A stretch of 37,531 bases of DNA from Methanomassiliicoccaceae archaeon (GTDB lineage: Archaea; Thermoplasmatota; Thermoplasmata; Methanomassiliicoccales; Methanomethylophilaceae), in contig PWNH01000102.1 of assembly GCA_003557905.1 (NCBI GenBank), positions 1-37,531 of the forward strand. Reading direction: 5' to 3'. The notes under the pieces were generated by a model that did not search any database, was not told the origin of the DNA, and saw nothing but the letters and a program-made list of their open reading frames with translations. The position numbers were made by a program, and so were the translations under genes. This document shows, one piece after another, positions 11,110-30,355 of the stretch. The number at the start of each line of letters is the position of its first letter. Position 1 is the first letter of the stretch.

Positions 11110-12018
11110 ATGCAGCAATACAGCCTAGCGGAACTGGAGGAGATCTACCGTGAGCAGAGGATAGTCCTCAAGAAACTGGAATCGAAGTATGATTTCGCCA
11201 TGGCTGTGATGAAGGCTGCACCATATTTCCTGATATCCTTGATAACCATCTCTGTCACGCTATCACTCTATGCACCGGAGATGTTCTTCGTCCCACTTGT
11301 GGTGTTGAGCTTCATCATCATTCTTATGGTCCTGCTGTACATATTCGTGAATAGGTTCGATGACACCATAACACTCACACAATTCGAACTTGACAAGATT
11401 AAGGAGGGGATGGACTTCCGTCAGAAGTTCCTCATATCGTCCTTCGTCACCTATCATCAGGCGATGGCCGCCCTGCCATCGAAGATCGAGGATATAGATC
11501 CCAACCGTTACGCCCGTGAGGCTATGACCATCAATGTCAGGGGCATGTTCGGACCCATGCGGGTGGAGGACATGGAATACCGGCATCCGAACATATTCCG
11601 TTCCATGCTGCAGTTCGAATCGGCCTATGAGAGTTTCCGTGACTCGATGGTTTCCCTCTCATTTCAGATCAAGGAGTTCAACTCCCGTCTGGAGTCCTTT
11701 CTGGGCGACAAGCTCATGGATGAGAACATAGCCGAAGATGAACGTGCGGTCATCAAGGAGTTTGTCGATATACAAACGCATGAGAGGGCCCGGATAATAT
11801 TGAACCATTCCATGGGAAATCACGATTACTACTCCCAGATACCGTACAATCGATTCAATTACATACTCGACTCATTGGAAAGCGAACTGCTGGAGAGGAT
11901 GGAGAACATCAATCGCAAGGGAGACAGCCTCCTTCCTTACTTCCGCCAGTTTGAATCATACCATTCCTCACTCAGCAGCGACCTTGTGTATCGCTTCGGG
12001 ACTCTTGAAAATGCATAG
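11110..12018 (+). CDS. Membrane-anchored coiled-coil protein of unknown function
   Basis: A 302-aa protein I do not recognise. Residues 1-30 form a charged helix (LAELEEIYREQRIVLKKLESK). Two membrane helices follow at about 37-54 and 58-80 with only a short turn between them, so most of the protein is on one side, probably the cytoplasm. The rest is predicted helical with many charged residues and no catalytic motif. It starts 7 bp after the glutamate synthase-like gene with a GAGTGAG immediately upstream, so the two are probably co-transcribed, although no functional link is obvious. It ends tail-to-tail with the RNA element at 12.04-12.49 kb. Confidence 0.75.
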   Translation: MQQYSLAELEEIYREQRIVLKKLESKYDFAMAVMKAAPYFLISLITISVTLSLYAPEMFFVPLVVLSFIIILMVLLYIFVNRFDDTITLTQFELDKIKEGMDFRQKFLISSFVTYHQAMAALPSKIEDIDPNRYAREAMTINVRGMFGPMRVEDMEYRHPNIFRSMLQFESAYESFRDSMVSLSFQIKEFNSRLESFLGDKLMDENIAEDERAVIKEFVDIQTHERARIILNHSMGNHDYYSQIPYNRFNYILDSLESELLERMENINRKGDSLLPYFRQFESYHSSLSSDLVYRFGTLENA

Positions 12019-12038
12019 AGATAAGGAATGAGAAATGG

Positions 12039-12208
12039 ATGGAAGAGGGTTGGCTCCGAAGGATTGCCGAAGCAGGGTGGTTTTATCGACCTTAGATCGA
12101 GGTAGTTTAATCCCGAAAGATCATCCTTGATCCATCAGCGGCAACTCCTACGAATTTTGTCTCGCAGGTAGGTCTACGCCACCGTGCCTTTTCGGTCCTT
12201 TCGTGCAA
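12039..12208 (-). ncRNA. Structured RNA element, copy B (class not recognised)
   Basis: Left and right ends are nearly identical to copy A, offset by exactly 280 bp. The ends pair with each other: 12057-12063 with 12196-12203 (one bulge), 12067-12071 with 12191-12195, and 12072-12080 with 12179-12187 (one mismatch). Inside, GACCT 12088-12092 can pair with AGGTC 12170-12174. A hairpin with a 5-bp stem lies at 12118-12131 (GATCA...TGATC), and a small hairpin at about 12152-12161. No open reading frame is shared by the copies. Minus-strand transcription is suggested by a TATA-like box at 12231-12240, which places the start near 12208, and by a pyrimidine-rich tail below 12039. It does not look like RNase P, SRP, tRNA, or C/D or H/ACA guide RNA. 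Confidence 0.62.
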
Positions 12209-12230
12209 ATTATGTATTTCTCGTGTGGAT

Positions 12231-12240
12231 TATTTAATAA
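12231..12240 (-). promoter_or_regulatory. TATA-like box for RNA copy B
   Basis: The minus strand reads TTATTAAATA, preceded by a purine-rich GGGAAA that could be a BRE. It is about 27 bp from the right edge of copy B. The matching element for copy A sits exactly 280 bp away, although the sequence around it is not conserved. Confidence 0.5.
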
Positions 12241-12303
12241 TTTCCCATGACCGTTGAAAGTGAGGAAAGGATCGTCAATCAAAATAAGAACGGGATCCCC
12301 ATG

Positions 12304-12313
12304 AAATAAAAAA
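12304..12313 (-). terminator. Oligo-T terminator after RNA copy A
   Basis: The minus strand reads TTTTTTATTT immediately after the conserved end of copy A. Archaeal transcription commonly stops at such T-runs without a hairpin. Its position supports minus-strand transcription of the element. Confidence 0.5.
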
Positions 12314-12488
12314 CCATAATGGAAGAGGTTTGGCTCCGAAGGATTGCCGAAGCAGGGTGGGCATAGCGACCTTAGACAACAAATTCTGACCTTTGGGGGA
12401 CAGTTTGAGGTCCATTAGCGGCAACTCCTACAAATTTTATTTCGCAGGGAGGTCTATACCACCGCGCCTTTTCGGTCCGTTCGTGCAA
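12305..12488 (-). ncRNA. Structured RNA element, copy A (class not recognised)
   Basis: This is the promoter-proximal copy if transcribed on the minus strand. The end-to-end helix is kept: 12337-12343 with 12476-12483, 12347-12351 with 12471-12475, and 12352-12360 with 12459-12467. One pair that is A-U in copy B becomes A-C on the plus strand but G-U on the minus strand, which favours the minus strand. The pair 12152/12161 (G-C) of copy B is A-U here (12432/12441), a compensatory change. The central segment folds differently (CAAA..CTG 12380-12388 with CAG-TTTG 12401-12407). A TATA-like box at 12511-12520 and an oligo-T at 12304-12313 frame a transcript of about 180 nt. SRAP is the upstream gene on this strand. 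Confidence 0.64.
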
Positions 12489-12510
12489 TATATGATGTGT
12501 CAATGCCGAT

Positions 12511-12520
12511 TATAAAATGA
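12511..12520 (-). promoter_or_regulatory. TATA-like box for RNA copy A
   Basis: The minus strand reads TCATTTTATA, about 27 bp before the right edge of copy A and exactly 280 bp from the matching box of copy B. On the plus strand it would have to drive a transcript starting near 12540, where nothing lies. Confidence 0.5.
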
Positions 12521-12579
12521 TGTTGATAACAGATTGAAATTACCCCTAGGGGGAATTCATTGACCTGTTTTTCAATGGA

Positions 12580-13179
12580 TCAGAACGAATCCAGAGTGTT
12601 CACCGGCCTGATGAGATCCGGACCTTCATTCTTGACGTCGTTCACCGCTTTACCTACCGCCAACCTCTCCAATGGAGGGCTCGATCCAATCGATGAAAGC
12701 GCATCGTCCACGGAGGAGTTGAACCATTCCGATTCCCTTTCCCTCTCAATTATGCATGGCATCCTGGGATGGATGTCCTTCACAGGATCCTCAGACTCTC
12801 GGGTCAGTATGATGACCTCCTTCCTGTCCGTGTATAGCGCGGCCATGGAGAACACCTCGCCGTCATTGACATGGAAAAGATGTGGATGCTTCTTACTATC
12901 CCATTCATAGAATCCGGTTGCAGGCACGAGACAGCGCCTGTCCTCCACCAGACGGGAGAACATCGCCTTTTCCTTGACCGTCTCGATACGGGCATTGATG
13001 AGTGACCGCCCGTACGGCCTCACGCCCCAGAACATATTCTCGAATCGTCCATCGGGCAGTATGCATAGGACATCCTGAGCGGGGGATATGTTGTACCTTG
13101 GTTCAGGTTGCGGCAGCCCCGGAATGGAATACCTTCCAGCAAGGTCCTCGTAAGGTGCTAAGCTGAATCTTCCGCACAT
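12580..13179 (-). CDS. SRAP family abasic-site DNA-protein crosslink protein (HMCES/YedK type)
   Basis: A 199-aa SRAP (SOS response-associated peptidase) protein. After removal of Met1, Cys2 of the MCGRF start forms a thiazolidine crosslink with abasic sites in single-stranded DNA and shields them at replication forks. The other active-site residues are visible: Asn62 in INARIET, Glu92 in GFYEWD and His137 in DIHPRMP. Length is slightly short but normal for microbial members. A TATA-like ATTTTAAA (minus strand, around 13208-13216) sits near 30 bp before the ATG, in a 58-bp divergent promoter shared with the purine permease. Its neighbours downstream on the same strand are the two RNA elements. 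Confidence 0.92.
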   Translation of the reverse strand: MCGRFSLAPYEDLAGRYSIPGLPQPEPRYNISPAQDVLCILPDGRFENMFWGVRPYGRSLINARIETVKEKAMFSRLVEDRRCLVPATGFYEWDSKKHPHLFHVNDGEVFSMAALYTDRKEVIILTRESEDPVKDIHPRMPCIIERERESEWFNSSVDDALSSIGSSPPLERLAVGKAVNDVKNEGPDLIRPVNTLDSF

Positions 13180-16235: not shown

Positions 16236-16322
16236 CTTGTTAATTACCGTTACTGCCTTACAGCGTGTGTTGCTTGGACACGATAGCTATTTGACCACGA
16301 TGGATGATTTCCGAAGGTGAAC

Positions 16323-16904
16323 ATGTTCGACAAGGACCTCGAGATTTACGTCCTTGACACTGAGACCACCGGGCTAGACGGATTTCCCAACGACCATGTT
16401 GTGGATGTCGCGGTCTGCCGTGTACGGCCGCATCGTGATACGGTCGAGCCCCTTCTTTCAACAGTCGTCGGCCATGATGTCAAATCCTGGTCCAAGACCC
16501 AACGCGAAGCCTGGATATTCCAGAACACTGATTTGACGGTGGAACAGGTCTCCAGGGCGACCCCGGTGACATTCGTCGCCGCCGAACTGCACTCACTGTT
16601 GCGGGGAAGGATGGTCACCAGTTTCAACGTCGGTTTCGATTTCGACAAGTTCCTCTATCATGATCCGTGGAGACTGCGGGAAGCAGTCCATACCACTCCG
16701 TGCATCATGTTGAAGGCTATGCCGGTCTGCAAGCTGCCCGGCACCTATGACGTTTACAAATGGCCCCGATTACAGCAGGCATACGATATGCTCGTGGACG
16801 GTGACCCCGCCGACATCGGTGACGAGCAGAAGCACCGGGCCATGGAGGATGCCTTGATGGCATCACATGTTCTTTTGGAACTCATCAGGCGCGGAGTTTA
16901 CTGA
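16323..16904 (+). CDS. DnaQ-like 3'-5' exonuclease (DEDDh), active-site intact
   Basis: A 193-aa RNase H-fold exonuclease. All five DEDDh residues are present: D12 and E14 (VLDTETTG), D106 (FNVGFDFDKF), H171 and D176 (KHRAMEDA). It should remove nucleotides from 3' ends of DNA or RNA using two metal ions; it has no polymerase or helicase domain. The start is ATG 16323; GTG 16317 in the same frame is possible. A TATA-like TAGCTATTT at 16283-16291 suits either. Its last 7 bp overlap the 3' end of the convergent P-type ATPase gene. A paralogue without the catalytic residues lies at 25095-25655 on the other side of the addAB block. Confidence 0.88.
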   Translation: MFDKDLEIYVLDTETTGLDGFPNDHVVDVAVCRVRPHRDTVEPLLSTVVGHDVKSWSKTQREAWIFQNTDLTVEQVSRATPVTFVAAELHSLLRGRMVTSFNVGFDFDKFLYHDPWRLREAVHTTPCIMLKAMPVCKLPGTYDVYKWPRLQQAYDMLVDGDPADIGDEQKHRAMEDALMASHVLLELIRRGVY

Positions 16905-19447
16905 TCGCGCATCTTCATGAAACGCTCATGGATGAACGGACTGTTCTTGTCCAAACGTAATATGACCGCCCCAGTGAAACGGCTGAAGATATCCTCTCTC
17001 AGCACCTTGCGGGTGAAGAGGAACCACAGTGACACCATCCCGGTTATGAAGAACATGTCGATGAAACGCAACGGTGTCAGATTGGCGAGGTACATTATCT
17101 CATCCACCATGAACACCGAGCCGACTATCGCATACAACAAAATAACGAGGATGAAGGGCCTTATGTCCTTGTGGATGGAGCCGTCGACGGAGAACCACTT
17201 GTTCAATGGCGCAACGAGAAGCACCAGGGTTATGCCTGCCAGTGTGACGAAGTAGGTCAACGCCATGCGGGCTGCCAGTTCGGCAGTCTGTTCAAGTACG
17301 GTCGGTGGTGAGGAGCCGCGATACTCAAGGTTCCAGGAACCGGCGAGCTGCTCGGGTGTGAACGTTATGTGTATGATGCTACCGACAACGCCGAGATAAT
17401 AGATGGAGTAGACGATGCATGCGAATATCGCTATCGTGATCGAGGCCGGGATGGCAAAGCGGAGAACTATCGGCAGTATGTCCCCCTTATGCTCACGAGG
17501 CTTTGCCCAGACGGTCATCAGGAATGCCGGTATAGACAGTGACACCAGTGCGTAGAAAGCGTTGTTCTGAGGGAGGACCGGCAGTGTCTGGAAGAATATC
17601 AGGGTGAACAGGATTATGAATGCCACAACGAAGTTCCTAGCCAGGTAAATACGCAGTATGCTGCGCATGCCGGTGGTTATGCGCCTACCTTCCAACAACG
17701 CATTGGGGAGGGCGGAGAACTTGTCATCAAGTAGGACCATGTCAGCGACACCGCGGGCGGCGCCGGAACCGCTCTGCAGGGCAACTCCCACATTGGCGGC
17801 CTTGAGGGAACGTACATCGTTCACACCGTCCCCTATCATGGCAACATATCGCCCCTGGGCCTTCAGGGATTCAACGATGCGTTCCTTATGGTCGGGACGC
17901 ATTCGACCGAAAATGTTGGTCTCCGCAGCCACCCGTGCCAGTTCGGAAGGGTCCAGGTTATCGAGTTCTTCACCGGAGATCTTTTTGCGGGTACCTGGAA
18001 TGCCAGCCAGGCTGAAGAGTGCATCCACGGTGACCGGGTCGTCACCGGAGATCACCTTGATGTCCATGTTGTTGTCGAGGAAGGCCTGGATGGTCTCCGC
18101 ACAATCGGCCCGTATCTCGTCACGCACGGATATGAGGGCCAATGGTTTCAATCTGGGCACGACCTCGTTGTCACCCTCCCAAAGCTCGGTGTCGGGGGCC
18201 CCGGTTAGAATCATTACGCGAAGGCCCTGTTCCGCGAGTTCGGTTACCTGGTCGCTTATGTCGACCTTCCAGTCGCAGTGCTTCCTCAACGCATCATAGG
18301 CGCCGAAGAAAAGGACGCGGCTCTCCTCACCGTCACGGTAACGTATGGCACTGTATTTCCTGCCGGAGGTGAAAGGTATCTCCTCTATGAGCCAACCCCT
18401 TCCAGCGGGTATCTTCTGCGATATGGAACGGATGGTGCGGTTCTTCGAACCGGTGAGCGCGGCGAAGTTGGCCAATGCTGCTGATGGGTCCTCGTCACTC
18501 AGCGGCCTGACCTCCTCCAATATGAGATTGTTGGTGGTGATTGTGCCTGTCTTATCCATGCACACGGTATCCACATGGCTCATGGACTCGACGGCGTTGG
18601 CTCTCTGCATCAATGCTCCGGAACCCGCCATACGTACCGCGCCCAGACCATAGGCGATGATTATCAGAAGGAAAAGTGCGATAGGTATGATGTCCAGGGT
18701 GATGACTATCATCTGGGTGGTCATCAGAGGGTTTATCCCCATCACGATGGCGGCGATGAGTATCAAGGTGGAGTAGATGACCGCTATACCGATGAGCAGT
18801 GACATCACCCTGCTGGTCTGGTATTGGAGAGGGGTCGATTTACGGTCGAACTTCTTGGCCTCGGAGAGGAGGCGGTTCACATATGTGTCATCAGCAACGG
18901 CATTGACGCGGAAGCATCCTGAACCAGCGACACAATAGGACCCGGAATACACCGTATCGCCCCTCTTCTTGCGGCGGGGACTTGACTCCCCGGTGATCAG
19001 GGATTCATCCATCTCAAGGGACTGACTGGTCAACACCGCACCGTCCACCAGGGCCTGGTCGCCGACGGACAGGATCACAATATCGTCCATCACGATCCCA
19101 TCGGGAAGGACGGTCATCTGTTGACCGTTGCGGTAAACAGTTGCTTCGGGACGGTGGAGCAAAGCTATCTTATCCAGACGTCTCTTCGCCCTCACCTCTT
19201 GCGTGGTTCCGACGATGACGTTGAAGAATATTATACTGGTTGCTGCCAGGGCCTCCAATTCATTGCCTAGTGTGAACAGTATCCCGCCCAGTGAGAACAG
19301 TATGAGGTTGAACAGGTTGAAGAAGTTCGTCTTGACAATCTCCTTATAGGTTCTGGATACCTTGACCTCGTAGCTGTTACGCAGGCCTTTGTCGGTGCGT
19401 TCCTGCACCTCTTCGGCAGTCAGACCCGCGGGAATATTCTCCACCAT
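16898..19447 (-). CDS. P-type cation-transporting ATPase
   Basis: An 849-aa P-type ATPase. The phosphorylated Asp is D298 in DKTGTIT; the actuator loop is TGES at 152-155, and the hinge is GDGVND. About ten membrane segments are visible: two pairs before the P-domain and six helices at the C-terminus. The N-terminus (GLTAEEVQERTDKGLRN) resembles the CtpE/MgtA-like cation pumps. The metal-site helix M4, which usually reads PEGL or PEGLP, is IPIAL here (255-258 PIAL), so the usual Glu ligand is missing and the transported ion cannot be predicted. The gene starts 25 bp after addA on the same strand and is probably partly co-transcribed. A TATA-like TTGAATAAG at about 19468-19476 could also give it its own start. 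Confidence 0.85.
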   Translation of the reverse strand: MVENIPAGLTAEEVQERTDKGLRNSYEVKVSRTYKEIVKTNFFNLFNLILFSLGGILFTLGNELEALAATSIIFFNVIVGTTQEVRAKRRLDKIALLHRPEATVYRNGQQMTVLPDGIVMDDIVILSVGDQALVDGAVLTSQSLEMDESLITGESSPRRKKRGDTVYSGSYCVAGSGCFRVNAVADDTYVNRLLSEAKKFDRKSTPLQYQTSRVMSLLIGIAVIYSTLILIAAIVMGINPLMTTQMIVITLDIIPIALFLLIIIAYGLGAVRMAGSGALMQRANAVESMSHVDTVCMDKTGTITTNNLILEEVRPLSDEDPSAALANFAALTGSKNRTIRSISQKIPAGRGWLIEEIPFTSGRKYSAIRYRDGEESRVLFFGAYDALRKHCDWKVDISDQVTELAEQGLRVMILTGAPDTELWEGDNEVVPRLKPLALISVRDEIRADCAETIQAFLDNNMDIKVISGDDPVTVDALFSLAGIPGTRKKISGEELDNLDPSELARVAAETNIFGRMRPDHKERIVESLKAQGRYVAMIGDGVNDVRSLKAANVGVALQSGSGAARGVADMVLLDDKFSALPNALLEGRRITTGMRSILRIYLARNFVVAFIILFTLIFFQTLPVLPQNNAFYALVSLSIPAFLMTVWAKPREHKGDILPIVLRFAIPASITIAIFACIVYSIYYLGVVGSIIHITFTPEQLAGSWNLEYRGSSPPTVLEQTAELAARMALTYFVTLAGITLVLLVAPLNKWFSVDGSIHKDIRPFILVILLYAIVGSVFMVDEIMYLANLTPLRFIDMFFITGMVSLWFLFTRKVLREDIFSRFTGAVILRLDKNSPFIHERFMKMRDQ

Positions 19448-19472
19448 CGTATCAGTATAATATTCAGCTTAT

Positions 19473-22322
19473 TCAAGAACCTATCGAGGATGATTCCGCC
19501 AAACGGTCACTGACGACCTGCATCAGTTGCTTCATCGGCATTGGCTCGAATGCCCTCCTCGTACCCAATTCCAAGAAATGAACGATACACTCGACCTCCT
19601 TCCCCAGAACGGCCGCGGCATGGGCGTAGACCGAGAGTTGTATCACATACTCGGATAGATTCGTCTCACTCATATCTGTCTTCCAATCGTGTATCTCGAC
19701 CTTGTCATCATGTTCCACCAAAAGATCTATCCTGCCTTCCAGTGAAACGTCACCCATCGGCAGGAGACAATCGACCTCGGTCGTTACCCGGGCCCCTTCC
19801 GCGGAGCTGAGGACCTCCCTCACCGCATCCAGACCCTTGTGCTCCTGCCACGGTGCCATCCCATGGACGAGTCGTTCCGCATCGGCATGGACCTTTGAAC
19901 CATGCTCCGTCCCCTTACCCCCTCCCTCCAGTATCGGTCGCAGGATGCTGTGAACGCCCATGTTCCTCCTCACGACCTCAGCGGTCTCGAGTTCAGGCCT
20001 GGGCACAAGCTTCCTGACATCGGTTTCCAACAGGGAATCGGGGGCGGTGAACTCGACCTCATGCACATGATGGTCGCTCATCCCGGAGATGAAGGGAGAA
20101 GGGTCATGGCAGGTGAACACCAGATGCTGCATCGACCTTGAAACTGCAACGTACAGTAGCCTCCTTTCCTCATCATATTCCTTCTGGGACAAGGCTGCCA
20201 CCAGCGCAGTCCTCCAATCGCGATGCCTCTCCAGCATACCGTCCTCATCAACCAGTTCATAAGCGGCCCTAAGTCCGTAAAGGCGGTCGAAACGCAGGGT
20301 GCCCGCCTCCCCTTTCTTCGATGGCATGTCGTTGGAGTTCAGACCGGCGACGATCACGGCGGGGTACTCCAGCCCTTTGGCGCCATGCATGGTGTGAAGA
20401 TGGACTGAGTCACGGCTGGATATCATATCGGCGGGATAACTGTCCGCCTTGCGGATATTCTCCTCTATGAGTGCGATCATCTCCGCTGTGCCGGTGAGAC
20501 TCCCTTCGTGAAGACCGGAGACCTGGGAGATTATGGCCTGTGAGATGTCGTTGTCGATCCCATAGCGTTGGAATATCGCGGTCATCAGTTGGTTGGGCGT
20601 CCGTTGCTTGGTCAACAGGAGTTCCCTCTGGATCCTGATTTCCTCAGGGAGAGGCGCCAGACCCTCCTTCACCGCCGCGATGGCATCGTGTGGATGGCCC
20701 TCGTGGTCCATGATCGCAGCGATCCCCCGTTGGTCCTCGGCATCGGATATCATCCGCAACCATGCCAGGACGATCTTTCCCTCCCTACTGAGGAATATCT
20801 CCATATCCCCATCCATCAACAGGGGCATGCCCAATTCCCGGGCTCTGCGTTCCAACATGTGCAACAGGTTCCTCTTACGGCTGAGCACGGCTATGTCCCC
20901 ATAACCGAGGGGTCTTCGGACATAGCCATCACCATCCCATTCAGTGACGGTGATGCCTTCCGAGACCATCTTCTGCGCCTCATGAAGTATCAGGTCCACC
21001 TCATCCTTCTGGCCGGCTGCTTTCAGGAAACGGACCCTGCAGTCCCCGTCCTCCAAGGATGATTTGGCGGAGTTCAGAGTGACGAGTTTGGAACGTATGT
21101 AGATGGGGTCGAGCACCTCGTCCTTTGTTGCATTCAGGAAAAGGGTCTTCTCCGAGAGGCGTATGACCCTGTCCGCACTGCGGTAGTTGGTCTTCAGGCT
21201 CTTATGGCGGGGGCTCTCCAAAGGCACCTTGCACCTCCTCCCCAGCTCATCGGTCAGTTCATCGATTCGGGTATCGAACTCCAATAGGTTCTCGATGTCA
21301 GCGTAACGGAATCCGTAAATGCCCTGTTTCCAGTCCCCGACCACACAGAGGTTGGGTTCCTTCAGTATCAAAAGGGATATCAGGAACTGCAGTTCGTTGG
21401 TATCCTGGAACTCGTCTATCATCACGTAACGGTAGCTTTCAGCATCCCGTACCGACCTGTCGTTGTACAAGGAAAGGAAGGCGAAGAAGGCCACCATCTG
21501 GAAGGTAAGTCTGTTCTCGCTGATGCTTCTGCGGAGATACTCCAGGAACACGTGGTGGATGAACCGGAACAGAGGAGTCCTGTCATGCCTGATGGCATCG
21601 TTGATTGCGTTGTCATCAACGACCGGGCCTGACCAGGTATCCACTGTGCCGGGCTGGTAGTCCTTGTTGCTGTTGATCTTGTTGAACAGTCCGCCCTTCC
21701 CCTCGGAATTCATCTCGTTGGCCTTGACCAACATGGCATCCACCTCGCCTTCCAGGATCGACAGGCCGTTGCGGAACCACCCTCCCACGGTGGGGCATGT
21801 GCCCAATGTGAGAAGGCGCGATATTATGGTGCTGATCTCATCAGCCTTGTCCCAGAGCAGCAGTGCGATGTCACCGTGCTTCGACCCATGACGGTCCAGG
21901 AAACGGTCGTAGAACTCCTGGAAATAGCGACGGTTCATGGCGGCGTTCTCTATCAGTCTGACCTGACGGGACAGCCTCTCCTCAATGCCGAGATACCGGT
22001 GTATGGATGATGTGTCGCGCATGAGGACACTGGAACAGAACGAATCGAATGTCGACGCCCTCACGGAGTTGACGTCCACATCCTTCATCCCACGACGGTA
22101 CAGTTCGTTCACCACCCTCTCCTTCATCTCATCCGCGGCGTTGTGGGTGAATGTGAGGAGCAGGACCTCTTGGGGATCGACATCATCCTTGGTTATGATG
22201 TTGATGTAGCGGTTCATGATGGTGAATGTCTTACCAGTTCCCGGACCGGCATCCACTACCACTATCCCTTCGGTGGTCTCCGCGATATCGCGTTGCTCAT
22301 CGTTCATACCGTCGCAGTTCAT
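19473..22322 (-). CDS. addA: AddA-like UvrD-family helicase/nuclease
   Basis: A 949-aa superfamily 1A helicase with a C-terminal RecB-type nuclease. Helicase motifs in order: Q-motif NDEQRDIAE, Walker A GPGTGKT (26-32), Ia TFTHNAADEM, Walker B IDEFQDTNE, III GDWKQGIYGFR, IV KTNYRS, V HLHTMHGAKGLEYP and VI LLYVAVSRS. The nuclease has GRIDLL and HDWKTD followed by QLSVYAHA, a typical PD-(D/E)XK exonuclease core. It should unwind and degrade DNA from double-strand ends with AddB and so start recombination repair or destroy linear foreign DNA. It is shorter than Bacillus AddA (about 1230 aa). Its ATG overlaps the addB stop by 4 bp (ATGA), a sign of translational coupling. The symbol is by family resemblance. 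Confidence 0.85.
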   Translation of the reverse strand: MNCDGMNDEQRDIAETTEGIVVVDAGPGTGKTFTIMNRYINIITKDDVDPQEVLLLTFTHNAADEMKERVVNELYRRGMKDVDVNSVRASTFDSFCSSVLMRDTSSIHRYLGIEERLSRQVRLIENAAMNRRYFQEFYDRFLDRHGSKHGDIALLLWDKADEISTIISRLLTLGTCPTVGGWFRNGLSILEGEVDAMLVKANEMNSEGKGGLFNKINSNKDYQPGTVDTWSGPVVDDNAINDAIRHDRTPLFRFIHHVFLEYLRRSISENRLTFQMVAFFAFLSLYNDRSVRDAESYRYVMIDEFQDTNELQFLISLLILKEPNLCVVGDWKQGIYGFRYADIENLLEFDTRIDELTDELGRRCKVPLESPRHKSLKTNYRSADRVIRLSEKTLFLNATKDEVLDPIYIRSKLVTLNSAKSSLEDGDCRVRFLKAAGQKDEVDLILHEAQKMVSEGITVTEWDGDGYVRRPLGYGDIAVLSRKRNLLHMLERRARELGMPLLMDGDMEIFLSREGKIVLAWLRMISDAEDQRGIAAIMDHEGHPHDAIAAVKEGLAPLPEEIRIQRELLLTKQRTPNQLMTAIFQRYGIDNDISQAIISQVSGLHEGSLTGTAEMIALIEENIRKADSYPADMISSRDSVHLHTMHGAKGLEYPAVIVAGLNSNDMPSKKGEAGTLRFDRLYGLRAAYELVDEDGMLERHRDWRTALVAALSQKEYDEERRLLYVAVSRSMQHLVFTCHDPSPFISGMSDHHVHEVEFTAPDSLLETDVRKLVPRPELETAEVVRRNMGVHSILRPILEGGGKGTEHGSKVHADAERLVHGMAPWQEHKGLDAVREVLSSAEGARVTTEVDCLLPMGDVSLEGRIDLLVEHDDKVEIHDWKTDMSETNLSEYVIQLSVYAHAAAVLGKEVECIVHFLELGTRRAFEPMPMKQLMQVVSDRLAESSSIGS

Positions 22323-24949
22323 TCCAAGGCCTCCATGCAGATGTCGAGGAACTCACACTTGGAACAATAATTCTCCTTACGGGGTTCGGCCGGGAATCCT
22401 GATATCTTGTACATCTTGATTTTTGAATGGCATTCGGTGACCTTCCCCAGGAACTTTTCCATGGTCTCGCTTGTGATCAGGACGGTGTCCTTGGTGTGGG
22501 GCACCTCGTCCCTCAACTTCTCCAGGGCCTTGGTGAAAACCTTTTTACCGACCGCTTTTTTGCGGCTCTTCCCCTTCAGGAACAAGATGAAATTATCCAA
22601 AGCCTCAGGCTCTTCATCCAACGGCAGCTCCCATGCCCTTATGGAAACCAGGTGGTCGCAGAACTCCTTCTCCCCCACCTCCTCAAGGAAGGGGGCGAAA
22701 TCCTTCGGCCCCTGACGCAGTATCCGTATTATCCACGGGTCGTCCCCTCTCAACATGTCGGCACGCCCGGTGCCGGTGTAGGTGACCTTGTTGATATGGT
22801 TGGACAGGTCGTAAGCCTTCCTGTCAGCCGGGACTGGTTTCAGATAGTTGTAGTGCAGTGAGATCTCCCGCCTCTTCTCCCCCATCGAACGCAGCAGTGC
22901 CATGTAGGCCAAGGGCTGAGTGTCGGGATCCCCTTCCCCCCATATCGAGGCGATGCTCTTCGCTCGGGTACTAGCGGCTATGGGTGCACCTGTCTTATGG
23001 TCGACGGCCAGGGTCTGGTCGGCCATCAGGTCCACCAGCCCTCTGAGGAGGATCTGCCGGTCCTCTAGGAATATCTCCGTATTGCCTATGCGTGGCTTCT
23101 CACCGAGTGCGGTAAACAGGGGGTTCCCCCGACCGCCCCTGACCGGCATCTCCTCGATCCGATAACGGGAAGCGAATTCAGCGGCATTCCTAATCAGTGC
23201 CCGGAGGGCGGTCCGCTCGAAGCGGTCACGCCCTTTGTGGCTCAATGAGACGTAATCCCTCTGTAGGATCTCCAGACATCTCTCCTGGCCTTCAGGTGAT
23301 GCATAGGATGGATGATGGGCGATGAATTCCGCGTAACGATGTACAAGGGTGCCTCGGAACGCGGGGCCTGAATCGGGCGATTCACAGAGCCTACCGAAGT
23401 GGTACTTGCGGGGACATTTGAGCAATTGGTTCAAAGCAGACGGGGAGAGGGAAGCGGGCATCCGCGGCTCTTCCATATTCTGAGTGGAGAACTCCATTGC
23501 CACCGGGTCGGGCAGCCAACATCCGTTGGCGAATCCCCCCTCTTCAGTAAGATCGTCGAAATCCCTGACCGGTCGGTCCATTGCGCGGTTGAAGTATACA
23601 CAGGGTATGACCTTGCGACCCTTGGCGACCTTCGAGGTCATGTATATCCGTTGCTCGCCTTGTTGCAAAAGTATCTCGAAACGGGACTGGTCCTTCTCCA
23701 ATTCGGCTTCTGAATCTATGTGTTTGCGTCTTTGGATACGACGGGCCCACTCGTTCCCGAGGCCGAGATGGAACACTATGGGCCGGTCAACATAGGCTGA
23801 GGAGTGGCAGTCCACAAGCACCACACCCTCCTTCTCATCCTCATCCCTCAACATCTCCTCGCTGAGCTGGTCGATGCCGTAGCGGAGGTCTTCAAGCGTA
23901 TCATTGCGAAGAGGTGATGATGCCAATCCCAACTCCCTCAGGAGTCTGATAGTCATCGTCAATTCATCTCCCTTTAGCAACGACATGCTGGCCTGGGACA
24001 GGTTCATTGCCGATATGGATTCCATGCGCTCTTTCAGATCGATCAATGCCGCATCCTGGGACTCGAGCGCATGGACGGTGAAAAGTCGGGCATCATTCCG
24101 GATGTTGAAAGGCAAAGATGCAGGGTCCAGGTCTTTGAGGTCTACAGAACGCACAAGTCTTTTTATATCCCCCATCCTCGCCGTCGGAAGTCCTAGACAC
24201 AACTCCAGGAACCTCAACATGTCACGGATGCCAGGGAGGTCCCTCATGGACCTGACGCTCTGAAAAGGCAAGCCTTTGGCGTAAAGAGAGGTTCGCACCG
24301 AATCGGCCATTGAACCCCCGGTGTCCATGACAATTGCGGTGGCATTCATGTTTGCTCTGTCGATGAGGTCGGCCACATGCCGGCCTATCAATCGTTCGTT
24401 CCCCATATCCGAAATCCTCGGTATGGTGAACGAGCCTGAAGCCCACGGGCTGACCTCGGTGAATGAACCAGGCGGCGGAAGCACATGTTTATCGAGTTCA
24501 TCGAAAAGGTCAAGGGCGATGACCCCCACATCTATGCCCTCGAAGAAATCGAGCGGGAATCTTTCCATGGCCCGCTCCAATGTGGGGAGACGTGAGAGGT
24601 TCTTCCACACCAATTCCGAGTCCCTGCCCTCCAGATGCCTTTCCACCTGAGCGGTGTGTCTGCGTATCTCCCTGAGGTTCTCCACCTCACCATGAACATA
24701 ACGCAACTCCAGTCCAGTGGATTCTGCTATCTGGGTGATTATCCTGGCATCGGACCATGCCTCCTCCCCGATTATGCTCAAAGACAATCTCTTGGCCAAT
24801 TGTCTCGGGGTGACTGAGAACCTGCCCACCATAGGACGGTCCGCTATACGGTTCAATGCCGTTGCCAGAGGGGCCTGGCTCGTCAACGCCATGTCGAAGT
24901 CCTTCAGCAAACCGTACAGATCGTTGATAGAATGTGCCTTCCTCATCAC
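22319..24949 (-). CDS. addB: AddB-like nuclease subunit with Fe-S cluster cysteines
   Basis: An 876-aa partner of AddA. The N-terminal 450 residues follow the AddB/RecC-like helicase fold but show no Walker A, so this half is probably an inactive, structural helicase. From about residue 500 there is a RecB-type nuclease: LSPSALNQLLKCPRKYHF, then GLVDLMADQTLAVDHKTGAP with the Asp and D-x-K catalytic residues. The first Cys (LLKC) and the C-terminal C-x2-C-x5-C (YCSKCEFLDIC) form the four-Cys pattern of the AddB 4Fe-4S staple. The start is ATG 24949, with ATG 24946 next to it and a GGGAG-like Shine-Dalgarno upstream. It is first in the addB-addA-ATPase operon and divergent from the DnaQ-fold paralogue. 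AddB from Bacillus keeps a Walker A; its absence here resembles other reduced subunits. Confidence 0.82.
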   Translation of the reverse strand: MMRKAHSINDLYGLLKDFDMALTSQAPLATALNRIADRPMVGRFSVTPRQLAKRLSLSIIGEEAWSDARIITQIAESTGLELRYVHGEVENLREIRRHTAQVERHLEGRDSELVWKNLSRLPTLERAMERFPLDFFEGIDVGVIALDLFDELDKHVLPPPGSFTEVSPWASGSFTIPRISDMGNERLIGRHVADLIDRANMNATAIVMDTGGSMADSVRTSLYAKGLPFQSVRSMRDLPGIRDMLRFLELCLGLPTARMGDIKRLVRSVDLKDLDPASLPFNIRNDARLFTVHALESQDAALIDLKERMESISAMNLSQASMSLLKGDELTMTIRLLRELGLASSPLRNDTLEDLRYGIDQLSEEMLRDEDEKEGVVLVDCHSSAYVDRPIVFHLGLGNEWARRIQRRKHIDSEAELEKDQSRFEILLQQGEQRIYMTSKVAKGRKVIPCVYFNRAMDRPVRDFDDLTEEGGFANGCWLPDPVAMEFSTQNMEEPRMPASLSPSALNQLLKCPRKYHFGRLCESPDSGPAFRGTLVHRYAEFIAHHPSYASPEGQERCLEILQRDYVSLSHKGRDRFERTALRALIRNAAEFASRYRIEEMPVRGGRGNPLFTALGEKPRIGNTEIFLEDRQILLRGLVDLMADQTLAVDHKTGAPIAASTRAKSIASIWGEGDPDTQPLAYMALLRSMGEKRREISLHYNYLKPVPADRKAYDLSNHINKVTYTGTGRADMLRGDDPWIIRILRQGPKDFAPFLEEVGEKEFCDHLVSIRAWELPLDEEPEALDNFILFLKGKSRKKAVGKKVFTKALEKLRDEVPHTKDTVLITSETMEKFLGKVTECHSKIKMYKISGFPAEPRKENYCSKCEFLDICMEALE

Positions 24950-25094
24950 AACTCTCCCTAAGCGACCCGTTCATCAACGGAAGAAATCCACGTGGACGAT
25001 GGCCCCCAGTAATACTCTAGTGTGTAATGGGAACAAAATTGTTTCCCTGTGACGGATGAAAACATTTTTATCCGAGAGCGTGGACTTTGTGGTG

Positions 25095-25655
25095 ATGTCG
25101 GACAACATTCACGTACTGGCCGTATCAAAGACCGGGGACAACGGTTATCCCATTGACCAGGTGGTCGAGGTTGCCGTCTTCAAGGTCGATCTTTCGGCCA
25201 ATATGATGGAGTCTGTCTATGATAAGGTGGTCAAACAGGACACCTCCGTTTGGTCGGATGAGGTGAAGGACCGCGTCAAGGATCTTTATGGCATCAGTCC
25301 GGAGGATGTCGAGGAGGGCTGCAATGAGGATGCTGTTGCCCAAGACCTTCGTGAGTTGCTTCAGGACAAGACCATAACCGCCTTCGACGTCAAGGGCGAT
25401 TTCATGGGGCATCTCAAGAATGAGCCTTATGCACTGGCGAGGAAGGTGGAGGTCAGCTCCGCAATATCGTCCCGATCCTCGTTCGTTTACAGGCTGCCGT
25501 CCAAACAGACTCCGGGACCGGAGGGGTTGAGGATGAGTTATAAGGCGATCCTACCGGACGATCCCGCCGGAATCGGTGAGTCGGCCGGTGCCTATGAGGA
25601 CGCTGCCCGGGCATCGGCCATACTGCTGGAGCTGCACCAGCGTGGTCTTTACTGA
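25095..25655 (+). CDS. Catalytically degenerate DnaQ-fold protein, paralogue of the exonuclease at 16.3 kb
   Basis: A 186-aa protein that aligns over its whole length with the exonuclease at 16323-16904 (shared VVxVAVxxV, W-S near residue 50, FDV/FNV, and a C-terminal LLEL-RRG/HQRG-Y ending). Three of the five DEDDh residues are gone: Asp12 is Ala9 and Glu14 is Ser11 in HVLAVSKTG, and the His is Ala in SAGAYEDA. The middle Asp and the final Asp remain. It probably cannot cut and may act as a binding or regulatory subunit. The frame is open from ATG 25056, but ATG 25095 matches the paralogue's start and lies about 27 bp after a TATA-like TTTTTATC (25064-25071). It is divergent from addB. Confidence 0.83.
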   Translation: MSDNIHVLAVSKTGDNGYPIDQVVEVAVFKVDLSANMMESVYDKVVKQDTSVWSDEVKDRVKDLYGISPEDVEEGCNEDAVAQDLRELLQDKTITAFDVKGDFMGHLKNEPYALARKVEVSSAISSRSSFVYRLPSKQTPGPEGLRMSYKAILPDDPAGIGESAGAYEDAARASAILLELHQRGLY

Positions 25656-25692
25656 AACCTGCGAACATCTATATATGCACCAGAAGGGATAC

Positions 25693-26091
25693 ATGTCCAT
25701 GGAAGCAGCGCAGTTCCGTTTCTCCCGGGTTGTGGCGATAAGATTCCTCAGTCTGTTCATGGGGGGCGTGCTGGTTTTGACCGGCGTAATCCATCAATTC
25801 AACCCCGGACTCCTAAGTCTGGACCACGGTCTTGGGCTGGGTTTCCTGGCGGTGTTGCTGCCGATGCTGCTTGGACTTCTGATGGTAATATACGGTGTGG
25901 GCATCTGGATGGGATTCATTGAGGGAAGGCCTGAGATGTTCTACGTCGGCATCGCCCTCTACGCCCTGATGGCCGTACTCGGAATGTTGGCCTATTACGA
26001 GGGCCTGATACTTACCGCGGTCGGGGTCTTCGTGGTGTTCGGTTTCCTGAACTGCAACCAGTTAAAGGGTTATTTCGGTGTTTCCAAGTAG
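25693..26091 (+). CDS. Small four-helix membrane protein, first of three
   Basis: About 132 aa with four predicted membrane helices and a short polar tail ending in GYFGVSK. The family is not recognised. The frame is open upstream into the preceding gene, but ATG 25693 (or 25699) is about 24-27 bp after a strong TATA, CTATATATG at 25669-25677, and begins MSMEAAQF. The helices are rich in Gly and Leu with no channel or enzyme motif. It resembles the next two genes in size, topology and C-terminal tail (NQLKGYFG against RPQVKKFF and RPQVKEHYG), so the three probably arose by duplication. Confidence 0.7.
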   Translation: MSMEAAQFRFSRVVAIRFLSLFMGGVLVLTGVIHQFNPGLLSLDHGLGLGFLAVLLPMLLGLLMVIYGVGIWMGFIEGRPEMFYVGIALYALMAVLGMLAYYEGLILTAVGVFVVFGFLNCNQLKGYFGVSK

Positions 26092-26144
26092 ACTGGCGGA
26101 AATCATAATAATATATTTATATATTCAATTGCGGTATTAACGTC

Positions 26145-26507
26145 ATGGCTAAAAGACCATTTCTCATAACCCTGATAGGTGCCTTGTACCTGTTGATGGG
26201 ACTATCTATGGTGGCAGCAGGGATAGGCGTAGCGTTCCTGGACTTCTCTGTTTTCGACCCCGACATGGCAGGCGCAGGAGCCGTCATAGGGGGAGGGGTT
26301 CTGGTATTCGGGATCGTACTGCTGATAATCGCATACGGTTTCCTGAAAGGTTGGTCGATCATGTGGTACCTTGGCGTCATATTCTCCGCCCTGGGAGCCC
26401 TGGGCTCATTGTTCGCCCTGCCTGAGGCCGTGTTCATGCTGGTGATAAACGCCGTCATCCTCTACTACCTGTTCCGTCCCCAGGTGAAGAAATTTTTCAA
26501 GGTCTAG
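26145..26507 (+). CDS. Small four-helix membrane protein, second of three
   Basis: A 120-aa protein beginning MAKRPFLITLIGALYLLMG and ending RPQVKKFFKV, with four membrane helices. The KRP/ERP-(F/I)-L-(I/V)-TL-(I/V)-G start and RPQVK tail are shared with the following gene (26572-26955). A TATA-like run (ATATATTTATATATTC, about 26110-26125) lies close upstream. No function can be assigned. Confidence 0.72.
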   Translation: MAKRPFLITLIGALYLLMGLSMVAAGIGVAFLDFSVFDPDMAGAGAVIGGGVLVFGIVLLIIAYGFLKGWSIMWYLGVIFSALGALGSLFALPEAVFMLVINAVILYYLFRPQVKKFFKV

Positions 26508-26571
26508 CGGTTATTCCATTTTTAGGTAATCGCTCAGAAACCTTTTTCTCTTTCACCACCCAATCATCACC

Positions 26572-26955
26572 GTGGACGAAAGACCGATCTTGGTGACTTT
26601 GGTGGGCACGCTTCTGCTCGTTATAGGATTCTTGAGCATCCTGGAGGGGTATATGACCATCGAGAACGAGACCACCTTGCTCGGCATGGATCCTTTCTCC
26701 CTCGGGGTCTTCAGTCTGTTGGTCGGTCTGGCACTGATGATCTGCGGACTTGCCGCATTCTACGGCAACATATTATTCTGGTATCTGACCTTGGCCGTCT
26801 GTTTTGTTGCTCTGATAAACTCTGTACTGATGGTACCGGAGGGGTTGGTGCGTTTCGTATTGATCCTTATAGTGCTGAGCTATCTGACCAGACCTCAGGT
26901 GAAAGAGCATTACGGCATCGGTGACAAAGGCTCAACGAAACCTTATTCCCGATGA
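26572..26955 (+). CDS. Small four-helix membrane protein, third of three
   Basis: A 127-aa protein with GTG start (residues 1-16: MDERPILVTLVGTLLL), four membrane helices and a tail with RPQVKEHYGIGDKG. It is clearly related to the gene before it. Its last 24 bp overlap, tail-to-tail, the 3' end of the zinc-ribbon/membrane gene on the opposite strand. A weak CTTTTTCTC at 26542-26550 is the best TATA candidate. Function unknown. Confidence 0.7.
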   Translation: MDERPILVTLVGTLLLVIGFLSILEGYMTIENETTLLGMDPFSLGVFSLLVGLALMICGLAAFYGNILFWYLTLAVCFVALINSVLMVPEGLVRFVLILIVLSYLTRPQVKEHYGIGDKGSTKPYSR

Positions 26956-27366
26956 CCATTCGATGGTGCCGAGATTTGCCAGCATCCACATCTCCAACGC
27001 CTGCATCGCGAATCCGGCCAGCCATATTATTGACATCATGACGAGACACACAATGGTGAGGATCAAGAACCAGCCGTAAGCCAATGCGACCATTATCGAT
27101 GTCAGCAGTAAGCCTATAGCCATGAGATAGATCCCACGTTCAGTGAGGCCCATGTAGATGTGGCCGACGCCCCAGAGTCCGATGATACCGGGGAACAGGG
27201 CGAGGATCATCCCTATCTTGGGATCCCTCACCGGAGCGTCCTTCTTGGCCGCCGGCGGTGCACGTGGGATCTCACGGTAGCATTTGGGACAGGTGATGGA
27301 GTTATCGGGAACCGGGGACATGCAATGGCGGCATCTCTTGGTCATGGGTCTCAGCCTCATCATCAT
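26932..27366 (-). CDS. Zinc-ribbon protein with C-terminal membrane helices
   Basis: A 144-aa protein with an N-terminal zinc ribbon (RCRHCMSP and TCPKCYRE, two C-x2-C pairs), a Pro/Ala-rich linker, and three or four membrane helices from about residue 52. The segment GIIGLWGVGHIYMGLTERGIYLMAIG resembles the TM2-type helix-turn-helix found in many small zinc-ribbon membrane proteins. Several Met codons lie at the start; MTKRCRHC at residue 8 is an alternative. It overlaps the thioesterase by 4 bp on the same strand, so they share an operon. Role unknown. Confidence 0.75.
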   Translation of the reverse strand: MMMRLRPMTKRCRHCMSPVPDNSITCPKCYREIPRAPPAAKKDAPVRDPKIGMILALFPGIIGLWGVGHIYMGLTERGIYLMAIGLLLTSIMVALAYGWFLILTIVCLVMMSIIWLAGFAMQALEMWMLANLGTIEWSSGIRFR

Positions 27367-27794
27367 CTCTTTCTATCAGGGTCCAACCTGACCGCCAATC
27401 CTTGGAAGGTGGCGACATGCCTGTCGTTGTCATGGATGAGCACCTCATACAACGCATGGTTGCGGGTCGAGTTGATCTGCCTCGAAGTGGCGGTGATCCT
27501 GTCCCCCAATGCAGGACGATGATATGAGATGTTACAACTGAGGGCCACCCAGACATCATTTCCCAAATTGGATGACAATGCAAAGGCCTCATCGGCCAGG
27601 GTGAATATCGCGCCTCCATGTCCGGTCTCGATGCTGTTCCGCCTACCCTTCAGAGGCATGGAAACCACTGCGCTCTCGGGGGACAGGCTCTCAAGCTCTA
27701 TCCCCGTGGTGACCACGAACTCGCTTGACATGAGCTTCCTGGCGCGTTTACGACTGATCTCGGGGAGATCGGGATGGAAGCACTCCTCGTTCAT
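27363..27794 (-). CDS. Hotdog-fold thioesterase (PaaI-like)
   Basis: About 143 aa with a PaaI/4-hydroxybenzoyl-CoA thioesterase-like hotdog fold. SIETGHGGAIFTLADEAFALSSN matches the catalytic helix region of the family, with the Gly-His-Gly-Gly turn and the acidic residue (D/E) on the helix. It probably hydrolyses acyl- or aryl-CoA thioesters; the substrate is unknown. The open frame begins at 27806, but the second Met at 27794 (MNEECFHPD) is nearer the spacing expected from a TATA-like CTTTTATATG (minus strand, about 27814-27823). It is first of a two-gene unit with the zinc-ribbon protein, divergent from xseA. Confidence 0.82.
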   Translation of the reverse strand: MNEECFHPDLPEISRKRARKLMSSEFVVTTGIELESLSPESAVVSMPLKGRRNSIETGHGGAIFTLADEAFALSSNLGNDVWVALSCNISYHRPALGDRITATSRQINSTRNHALYEVLIHDNDRHVATFQGLAVRLDPDRKR

Positions 27795-27872
27795 GTTGCA
27801 TGCCATGTATTATCCCCATATAAAAGTTTGAATGAAAGGGTTTAACATTCTCTAAAACCTTGACCGTTCGAG

Positions 27873-29234
27873 ATGGATTCTACACTGGTCAGGGGAAGGG
27901 CCGTTAGCGATCCGGTGAGCGTCACCGATTTCAATTCCATCGCCCGCAGGATCCTGGTCAACTGCGATTCCCTCAATGATGTTTGGGTCCGAGGGGAGAT
28001 ATCCAATCTGATACGCGCATCATCCGGTCATTATTATTTCACCATGAAGGACGGCGGAAGTGAGTTGCGTTGCACACTTTTCCGAGGTGTTGCCCAAAAA
28101 CTGAGCAATCCTCCGCAGGACAAGGAGGAGGTTGTCGCCAAGGGCTCAGCCGACCTCTACATGGCCAGAGGGTCATACCAATTCAACATAACCGACCTGC
28201 GTCCTGTGGGAGTCGGCGACCTCCATGCCAAGTTCGAGGAGTTGAAGAAAAGGTTGATGGAGGAGGGTCTCTTCGAAGAAAGTCGCAAACGTCCGCTTCC
28301 CCGGTATCCGGACACCATAGGAGTCGTGACCTCACCGACCGGTTCTGTGATCCGGGACATAATCAACGTTGCTTCAAGGCGTTACCCCTGTCGCATCATA
28401 CTCGCGCCGGCACAGGTCCAGGGAACGGGATCATCCGAATCCATTGTGAGGGCGATGTCGCTACTGGTCAGGTACGGTGTGGACCTTATGATAGTTGGAA
28501 GGGGGGGTGGTTCTCTCGAGGATCTGTGGCCTTTCAACGAGGAGGCTGTGGCCAGGGCCATATACTCCTGCCCTGTCCCGGTTATTTCCGCGGTAGGCCA
28601 TGAGACCGACTATTCCATATCCGACTTCGTTGCCGACAGACGGGCTGAGACTCCTTCAGCGGCTGCGGAGATGGCGTTGCCAGATCTAGGGCTGGAGAAA
28701 AGACACCTGCTTCAGCTGGTGTCCAAAGGCGACAGGGCTCTGATGCGTTCATCTGAAACAGCCTATCGGGAATTCTTGGCGCTGGACCGCATGTTGGCCC
28801 CGAGGCGTGCCCAGGAGAAGCTGCAACAGCTGATGCAGAGAGTTGACGACCTCGATGATGACATGGTCCGTAGTGTCAAGATGAGAGGGGAGCGGCTAGT
28901 CACCCGGATAGATGGTCTGAGATACCGTCTCTCACCGGTCCATGCCAAACTCATGGTCGATGGGGCCGGGAAGGAGTTGGTTCAGTTGTGTGAGAGGTCG
29001 GATGCCCTTGTGAGCTCCAGATTGAACGAGGCGTTGTCAAGGCTTCAGAATCTGGAAGGATCGATGAACGCCCTCGATCCTCTCAAAGTACTCGACCGCG
29101 GATACTGCATCGTCATCGGAACCGACGGGAAACCGATCTCCAGCATAGAGGACGCGGGCGTGAACGAAATGGTGAGAATGAGGCTTCAAGACGGTTATCT
29201 GAGTGCGGAGATCAAGGACAAGGAGATGTTATGA
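27873..29234 (+). CDS. xseA: Exonuclease VII large subunit
   Basis: A 453-aa protein matching XseA over its full length. The N-terminal OB-fold (about 15-110; VWVRGEISNLIRASSGHYYFTMKD) binds single-stranded DNA. The catalytic domain follows, with IGVVTSPTGSVIRDI, RGGGSLEDLWPFNEEAVARAI, PVISAVGHETDYSISDFVADRRAETPSAAAE. A coiled coil and the C-terminal GYCIV segment complete it. ExoVII cuts single-stranded DNA from both ends without metal and trims mismatched or displaced strands. Its 3' end overlaps xseB by 4 bp. The upstream gap of 66 bp is a divergent promoter with the thioesterase. Confidence 0.96.
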   Translation: MDSTLVRGRAVSDPVSVTDFNSIARRILVNCDSLNDVWVRGEISNLIRASSGHYYFTMKDGGSELRCTLFRGVAQKLSNPPQDKEEVVAKGSADLYMARGSYQFNITDLRPVGVGDLHAKFEELKKRLMEEGLFEESRKRPLPRYPDTIGVVTSPTGSVIRDIINVASRRYPCRIILAPAQVQGTGSSESIVRAMSLLVRYGVDLMIVGRGGGSLEDLWPFNEEAVARAIYSCPVPVISAVGHETDYSISDFVADRRAETPSAAAEMALPDLGLEKRHLLQLVSKGDRALMRSSETAYREFLALDRMLAPRRAQEKLQQLMQRVDDLDDDMVRSVKMRGERLVTRIDGLRYRLSPVHAKLMVDGAGKELVQLCERSDALVSSRLNEALSRLQNLEGSMNALDPLKVLDRGYCIVIGTDGKPISSIEDAGVNEMVRMRLQDGYLSAEIKDKEML

Positions 29235-29461: not shown

Positions 29462-30355
29462 TCAGTCCCAAAGGTGGAGGCCGTTGTCCTCACCCCATTC
29501 CTTTATGGCGGTGTACAGCCCGGTATCATAGAAATCCTCCCGGGTGTAGGATAGCCTCAGAGTACCGGAGAGCATCCCCTGGTTCATTGAGCGGGCATTG
29601 TAAAGCCCGACAGATTCCCGTAGTGCCAACAACAGGATGCTGACCATGTCGTGTCCCCTGCATATCACCCAGGGGTCGTACTTCTTCTTAAGTTCCGCCT
29701 CCAGGTCCTGTTGGACGTTCTTTTTGTTGGTTGTGCTATGGTCCGAAAGGGAGAAGATATGGTCGACCATCCTCTTGTTGTCGGTGGATATCTTGGCGGT
29801 GTCGACGAAGCTACGGTGGTTTATGTCCCGGAAAGAAAGGTTGTAATCCTTCTTCAGGGAGAGGAACATGAGCATCCCCAATGGAAGGGAGGACTTGATT
29901 ATCGCCTCCTTCACGGAATCCCCTGTCCTCTGCTTGAATCGTGCGATCTCATCCCGGTCACCATACTCCCAAAGGACGGAGTCCAGTGCGGATGAGCGCA
30001 TCAGTGCCGTCTCTAGATCGTGACAATCGGTGACGAAGAGGTGTTCATCGAATTTCTTGCCCAGGAGAAGATCGTAATCCTGGTCCACGATGCCCGAGGT
30101 GAGTCTGTCCCCGCGGTTGTCGACCATCTCCTTAACGGTGATCCTCACATTGTCCTTGGAATGGGCTATGACCACTTGACACTCGGATGGGTTGGTGAAC
30201 TTTCCATACAGACGCGAATCCGTCACCCCTTCGACCACAAGGAATGCACCTCGGTATTTGGATCTCCGCATGGACATCTCATTGGCGACCTCATAAGGCT
30301 GGATGTGCCGCCTCAATTCAGACCACCAGTTCCACAGTGAGGTCCCAACGGTCAT
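29462..30355 (-). CDS. ariB: DUF4435/TOPRIM protein, PARIS AriB-like
   Basis: A 297-aa DUF4435 protein. Counting from the ATG at 30355, a TOPRIM-like acidic set is visible: E42 in LVVEGVTDSRLY and D91, D93, D95 in GIVDQDYDLL; FVTDCHDLETAL follows. In PARIS, AriB is the TOPRIM nuclease effector released by AriA when a phage anti-restriction protein is sensed, after which it cleaves host tRNA and stops growth. Here it directly follows an AAA ATPase and overlaps it by 38 bp, the gene order of PARIS. A TTG at 30361 extends the frame by two codons, but ATG is more likely. The pair assignment is from family architecture, not from a search. Confidence 0.8.
   Translation of the reverse strand: MTVGTSLWNWWSELRRHIQPYEVANEMSMRRSKYRGAFLVVEGVTDSRLYGKFTNPSECQVVIAHSKDNVRITVKEMVDNRGDRLTSGIVDQDYDLLLGKKFDEHLFVTDCHDLETALMRSSALDSVLWEYGDRDEIARFKQRTGDSVKEAIIKSSLPLGMLMFLSLKKDYNLSFRDINHRSFVDTAKISTDNKRMVDHIFSLSDHSTTNKKNVQQDLEAELKKKYDPWVICRGHDMVSILLLALRESVGLYNARSMNQGMLSGTLRLSYTREDFYDTGLYTAIKEWGEDNGLHLWD

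Follow-up and report, generated by a model that had tools for sequence, protein, structure and literature searches.

Our analysis points to a new family of structured RNAs, restricted to one lineage and transcribed independently, which is represented by two tandem copies in a 37,531-nucleotide stretch of a Methanomassiliicoccaceae archaeon genome (hereafter the window). Judged from sequence comparison, the status of a new family is likely, and it is very probable that the element is an independent RNA gene on the minus strand. The features of an independent structured non-coding RNA, i.e., an own promoter, a covarying fold and no reading frame, were all found. The original prediction, that of a tandem structured RNA apparently undescribed so far, is upheld by the covarying helices of its homologues and by the complete lack of matches in Rfam.

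The two repeat copies occupy positions 12039-12214 and 12319-12494 and are 79% identical. As originally described, they lie 280 bp apart in a gap without genes, which spans 12019-12579 and is bounded by a plus-strand ORF of 302 amino acids (end 12018) and a minus-strand SRAP gene (stop codon at 12580). It also holds, on both strands, that the copies share no reading frame. Searches elsewhere in the genome assembly revealed no further copies, and the copy tree resolves too poorly for the duplication to be dated. Their sequence suggests that the copies are probably tandem minus-strand RNA genes, each with its own promoter and producing an RNA of ~170-180 nt. We call D the distal copy and P the copy proximal to SRAP; their predicted features, all on the minus strand, are the following.

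12030..12209, RNA gene, distal copy D; predicted 5' end near 12209-12206 and 3' end near 12040-12030; the call is also based on TATA geometry
12048-12204, covariance-model match of copy D, 177 bits, copy D being among the model's own building sequences
12308..12489, RNA gene, SRAP-proximal copy P; predicted 5' end near 12489-12486 and 3' end at the T6 run
12328-12484, covariance-model match of copy P, 166 bits, copy P being among the model's own building sequences
12231..12238, TATA box of copy D (ATTAAATA), 34 nt upstream of the conserved block
12511..12518, TATA box of copy P (ATTTTATA), 34 nt upstream of the conserved block
12534..12544, conserved upstream element of copy P (GGTAATTTCAA), the single site in the window at one mismatch or fewer
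12308..12313, T6 run of copy P, probable terminator
12179..12203, P1 closing helix of copy D, 5' strand, with bulged AAA
12057..12080, P1 closing helix of copy D, 3' strand, with the invariant bulge CAA
12170..12174, P2 of copy D, 5' strand, pairing with 12088-12092
12088..12092, P2 of copy D, 3' strand
12147..12168, P3 hairpin of copy D, with a conserved A-rich loop
12138..12145, junction strand of copy D (GUUGCCGC), in which UUGCCGC is invariant in 14 of 14 copies
12093..12134, P4/P5 variable arm of copy D, where the bulk of the covariation lies
12459..12483, P1 of copy P, 5' strand, pairing with 12337-12360
12337..12360, P1 of copy P, 3' strand
12427..12448, P3 hairpin of copy P
12418..12425, junction strand of copy P (GUUGCCGC)

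A number of arguments favour the minus strand over the plus strand, which the original prediction had assumed. First, all 14 copies known, from 7 genomes, have a TATA-like box ~32-36 nt before the conserved block on the minus strand: a crude scan places the best TATA match at 33-36 nt in 11 of them, and TATA-like sequence can be read by eye at 32-33 nt in the other three. The RNase P and SRP RNA genes of the same genome, both stable archaeal RNA genes, have TATA boxes at a similar distance. Second, T-rich sequence or T-runs follow the conserved block at the minus-strand 3' end in all 14 copies, the T-rich end being only weak in copy D of this genome. Third, the consensus fold reaches -40.3 kcal/mol on the minus strand versus -26.6 kcal/mol on the plus strand, and it departs further from column shuffles (z = -10.6 versus z = -5.6). 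Fourth, the minus-strand helices contain 63 G-U cells versus 5 A-C cells, a count somewhat biased towards this strand because the structure was derived on it, and 94.9% of the cells are paired, versus 84.8% on the plus strand. Transcription of a structured RNA from the plus strand is therefore highly improbable: its consensus does beat the column shuffles, and P1 is nearly palindromic, so that either strand can form it, but the fold is weaker and neither a constant TATA position nor T-runs could be found on that strand in the 14 copies.

The autonomy of the copies is further suggested by G003, where an ORF separates the two RNA copies and each one thus retains its own unit. This ORF (L045 4278-4964, plus strand) encodes ~130 aa with a signal-like start. 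The GGTAATTTCAA element is identical or nearly so before the P copies across the genus, and YCTGTTATCAACA follows it in several genomes; it is a possible binding site for a regulator, as far as its sequence can tell.

The fold is organised around P1 (CGAA.GGACCGA...GGCA.GGUGG with CCACC.UGCUUCGGCAAUCCUUCG), which unites both ends of the RNA and carries the bulges AAA and CAA; the pairing of the unit ends with each other, proposed originally, is thus confirmed in the form of a long interrupted helix. P2 (GACCU/AGGUC) opens onto a three-way junction with P3, a hairpin of the CCUGCGA/UCGUAGG type with an A-rich loop, and with P4/P5. Covariation backs the closing helix, the hairpin with the A-rich loop and the variable arm at the junction: 10 of the 41 pairs changed on both sides, in 26 cells, a count that overstates the independent events because copies within one genus are closely related. 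None of 500 shuffles scored as high, and slid controls had at most 51% of their cells paired. Most of the covariation lies in P4, and P5 forms a hairpin in every copy of the hand alignment, with 4-6 pairs and, in six copies, one mismatch. The support for P1 comes mainly from conservation, since most of its pairs are invariant or changed on one side, with one clean G-C to A-U change. Some copies depart from this model: most of the P4 pairing is gone from the third copy of G001, and the G014 copy fits the consensus poorly (-34 when forced versus -55 when free), partly because its variable arm is misaligned.

Two point differences between the copies had been given as signs of a maintained structure. 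The one at the bulge 12199/12479 is sound, as the base is unpaired. The compensatory change at 12152/12161 (against 12432/12441) does not hold up in the covariation-supported model, where the partner of 12161 is 12154 and that of 12152 is 12163; what separates the copies there is a pair of one-sided changes, G-U to A-U and G-C to G-U, by which the helix is preserved on the minus strand only. Single copies folded on the plus strand do not outperform shuffles (z -1.1 and +1.25), and the case for a structure consequently rests on the comparison between species.

This comparison reveals strong conservation within a narrow range. Among four species, the RNA is 79-97% identical, the 60 nt containing the promoter 59-85%, and the sequence 60-120 nt upstream 40-64%, with random sequence at 44%. 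In a DNA search of 61 related genomes, the element turned up in all six examined genomes of the genus, in pairs except for the three copies of G001, and as a single copy in G014, from a second genus of the family. The covariance model built from the 14 copies retrieved the same 7 genomes, and no others, among 102 of the family and 147 of the order, and the genus only among 390 genomes sampled from the phylum; these large searches used strict filters, by which weak homologues may be lost. A laxer search of 37 relatives added weak matches only, and the SRAP loci of other genera had no homologue even with filters off. The weak model matches in other genera were rejected: short hairpins account for three of them, and of the two longer ones, the one that was checked falls within coding sequence. 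Chance matches to the DNA pattern in bacterial and viral contigs do not pass the covariance model. Thermoplasmatota had originally been named as the place to look for homologues with covarying pairs; such homologues exist, but their range is far narrower than the phylum, i.e., one genus plus one genome. The named records bearing copies are Candidatus Methanomethylophilaceae and Methanomassiliicoccaceae MAGs (CSBr16, CSSed10, B1Sed10, T1Sed10) and UBA9915. We take the isolate names CSBr16, CSSed10, B1Sed10 and T1Sed10 to denote soda-lake samples.

Tandem copies with palindromic ends could also be expected of a selfish or inactive MITE-like repeat that folds by chance. This is extremely improbable, given that there are no other genomic copies, that the element keeps to one locus throughout the genus, that conservation is strong and includes the promoters, and that plasmids and phages gave no match.

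The original failure to match the element to any known class was corroborated by searches with Rfam, tRNA, RNase P and SRP models. None of the 4227 Rfam families matched positions 11950-12620, either at their own thresholds or at E <= 10, and the six homologous loci gave only chance-level Rfam matches, none of them touching the conserved block. ARAGORN found 0 tRNA or tmRNA genes in the window. The archaeal RNase P RNA (RF00373) and SRP RNA (RF01857) models have no match in the window, and the genome has its own RNase P RNA at C73 and SRP RNA at C85. A C/D box guide was rejected because conserved boxes C (RUGAUGA) and D (CUGA) are not found near the ends: UGAUGG is internal and restricted to some copies, with UAAUGG in others. 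The consensus, read by eye for H/ACA features, shows no large pocket, and no tandem G-A pairs come after the 3-nt bulges. With the independent structured small RNAs of archaea the element shares an intergenic position, an own TATA promoter, a T-rich end, a conserved fold and the absence of an ORF; it differs from them in having no covariance-model relation to Rfam 15 families and in its restriction to one genus and one genome of a second. The bulged closing stem joining both ends and the GGACCGAA motif presumably recall the lower stem of Y RNAs. The chance of an archaeal Y RNA with a Ro (TROVE) protein bound to it is nevertheless close to nil, since a TROVE protein was found in 0 of 25 genomes (incomplete ones, including all six of the genus), the TROVE-bearing control genome was detected, and Rfam gave no match. 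Among the papers searched, we found no small-RNA study of Methanomassiliicoccus. SRP RNA, RNase P RNA and a group II intron are among the RNAs that a published genome comparison of the order reports from Rfam searches (PMC4153887); detection of this type would miss the RNA described here.

The locus has a constant gene order where contigs reach: GltS, the 302-aa ORF, the RNA copies, SRAP and a permease, with the RNA directly after the SRAP gene in every case. The 302-aa ORF (11110-12018, plus strand) lacks Pfam and NCBIfam matches; five of the six genus members have it, G001 being the one in which it was not found, and G014 retains a broken remnant. A riboswitch or mRNA leader was rejected, as no gene follows in the same direction, the next one being convergent, and copy P has its own end signal. 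The RNA might instead control a neighbour, be it SRAP, just upstream on the same strand, or the convergent ORF, as an antisense. The invariable position after SRAP would fit the former, as would the fact that, within the family, the RNA-bearing genomes are those with the SRAP most like the one of this genome; read-through of the convergent ORF would include the complement of the RNA. We regard such control as unlikely, because the RNA copies have their own conserved promoters and the fold is conserved beyond the needs of a simple antisense. Moreover, G012 has SRAP without detectable RNA alongside, G001 keeps three RNA copies with no ORF found, and G014 keeps the RNA next to the broken one.

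Action in trans is the likely alternative to control of a neighbouring gene. Each tandem gene would be transcribed on the minus strand from its own promoter into a folded non-coding RNA, in which P1 would join the ends and P2 would lead to the three-way junction carrying P3 and P4/P5, linked by the almost invariant GUUGCCGC. Such an RNA would be stable, with a protein held on P1, and its junction strand or A-rich loop might touch a partner. The near invariance of the P1 sequence and of its bulges AAA and CAA suggests contact with a protein, and that of the junction strand suggests contact with a partner; we give about even chances to an RNA that is bound by protein and makes its contact through the junction strand. 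Searches for a protein partner or target of the RNA found none, the complement of the junction strand is absent from the RNase P and SRP loci, and the 16S rRNA gene was not found in this assembly. The bulged CGGCAAU of P1 has its complement in GUUGCCGC. Within one molecule, pairing between the junction strand and CGGCAA of P1 was rejected, being several kcal/mol above the best fold in nearly all copies, with a probability near 0. One could speculate that the RNAs form a lineage-specific RNA-protein particle in which the tandem RNAs touch each other, or a shared target, via GUUGCCGC, possibly in connection with SRAP, but we consider this quite doubtful. SRAP is a DNA-repair type protein, and its link to the RNA may be one of shared position only.

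With its conserved and covarying sequence, promoters of its own and 1-3 copies at one locus across the genus, the RNA offers expression studies and pull-downs a defined target. What we have at present is a sound new RNA family and not a new kind of biology.

Elsewhere in the window, positions 29462-31358 carry two overlapping minus-strand ORFs, for an AAA ATPase and a DUF4435 protein, with matches to AriA (E 3.5e-23) and AriB (E 5.5e-21) of the PARIS anti-phage system. Positions 16317-29234 hold a DNA-repair-like run with an RNase_T exonuclease, a UvrD helicase with a PDDEXK nuclease, a second PDDEXK protein and the large subunit of exonuclease VII, the helicase and nuclease pair resembling bacterial AddAB.
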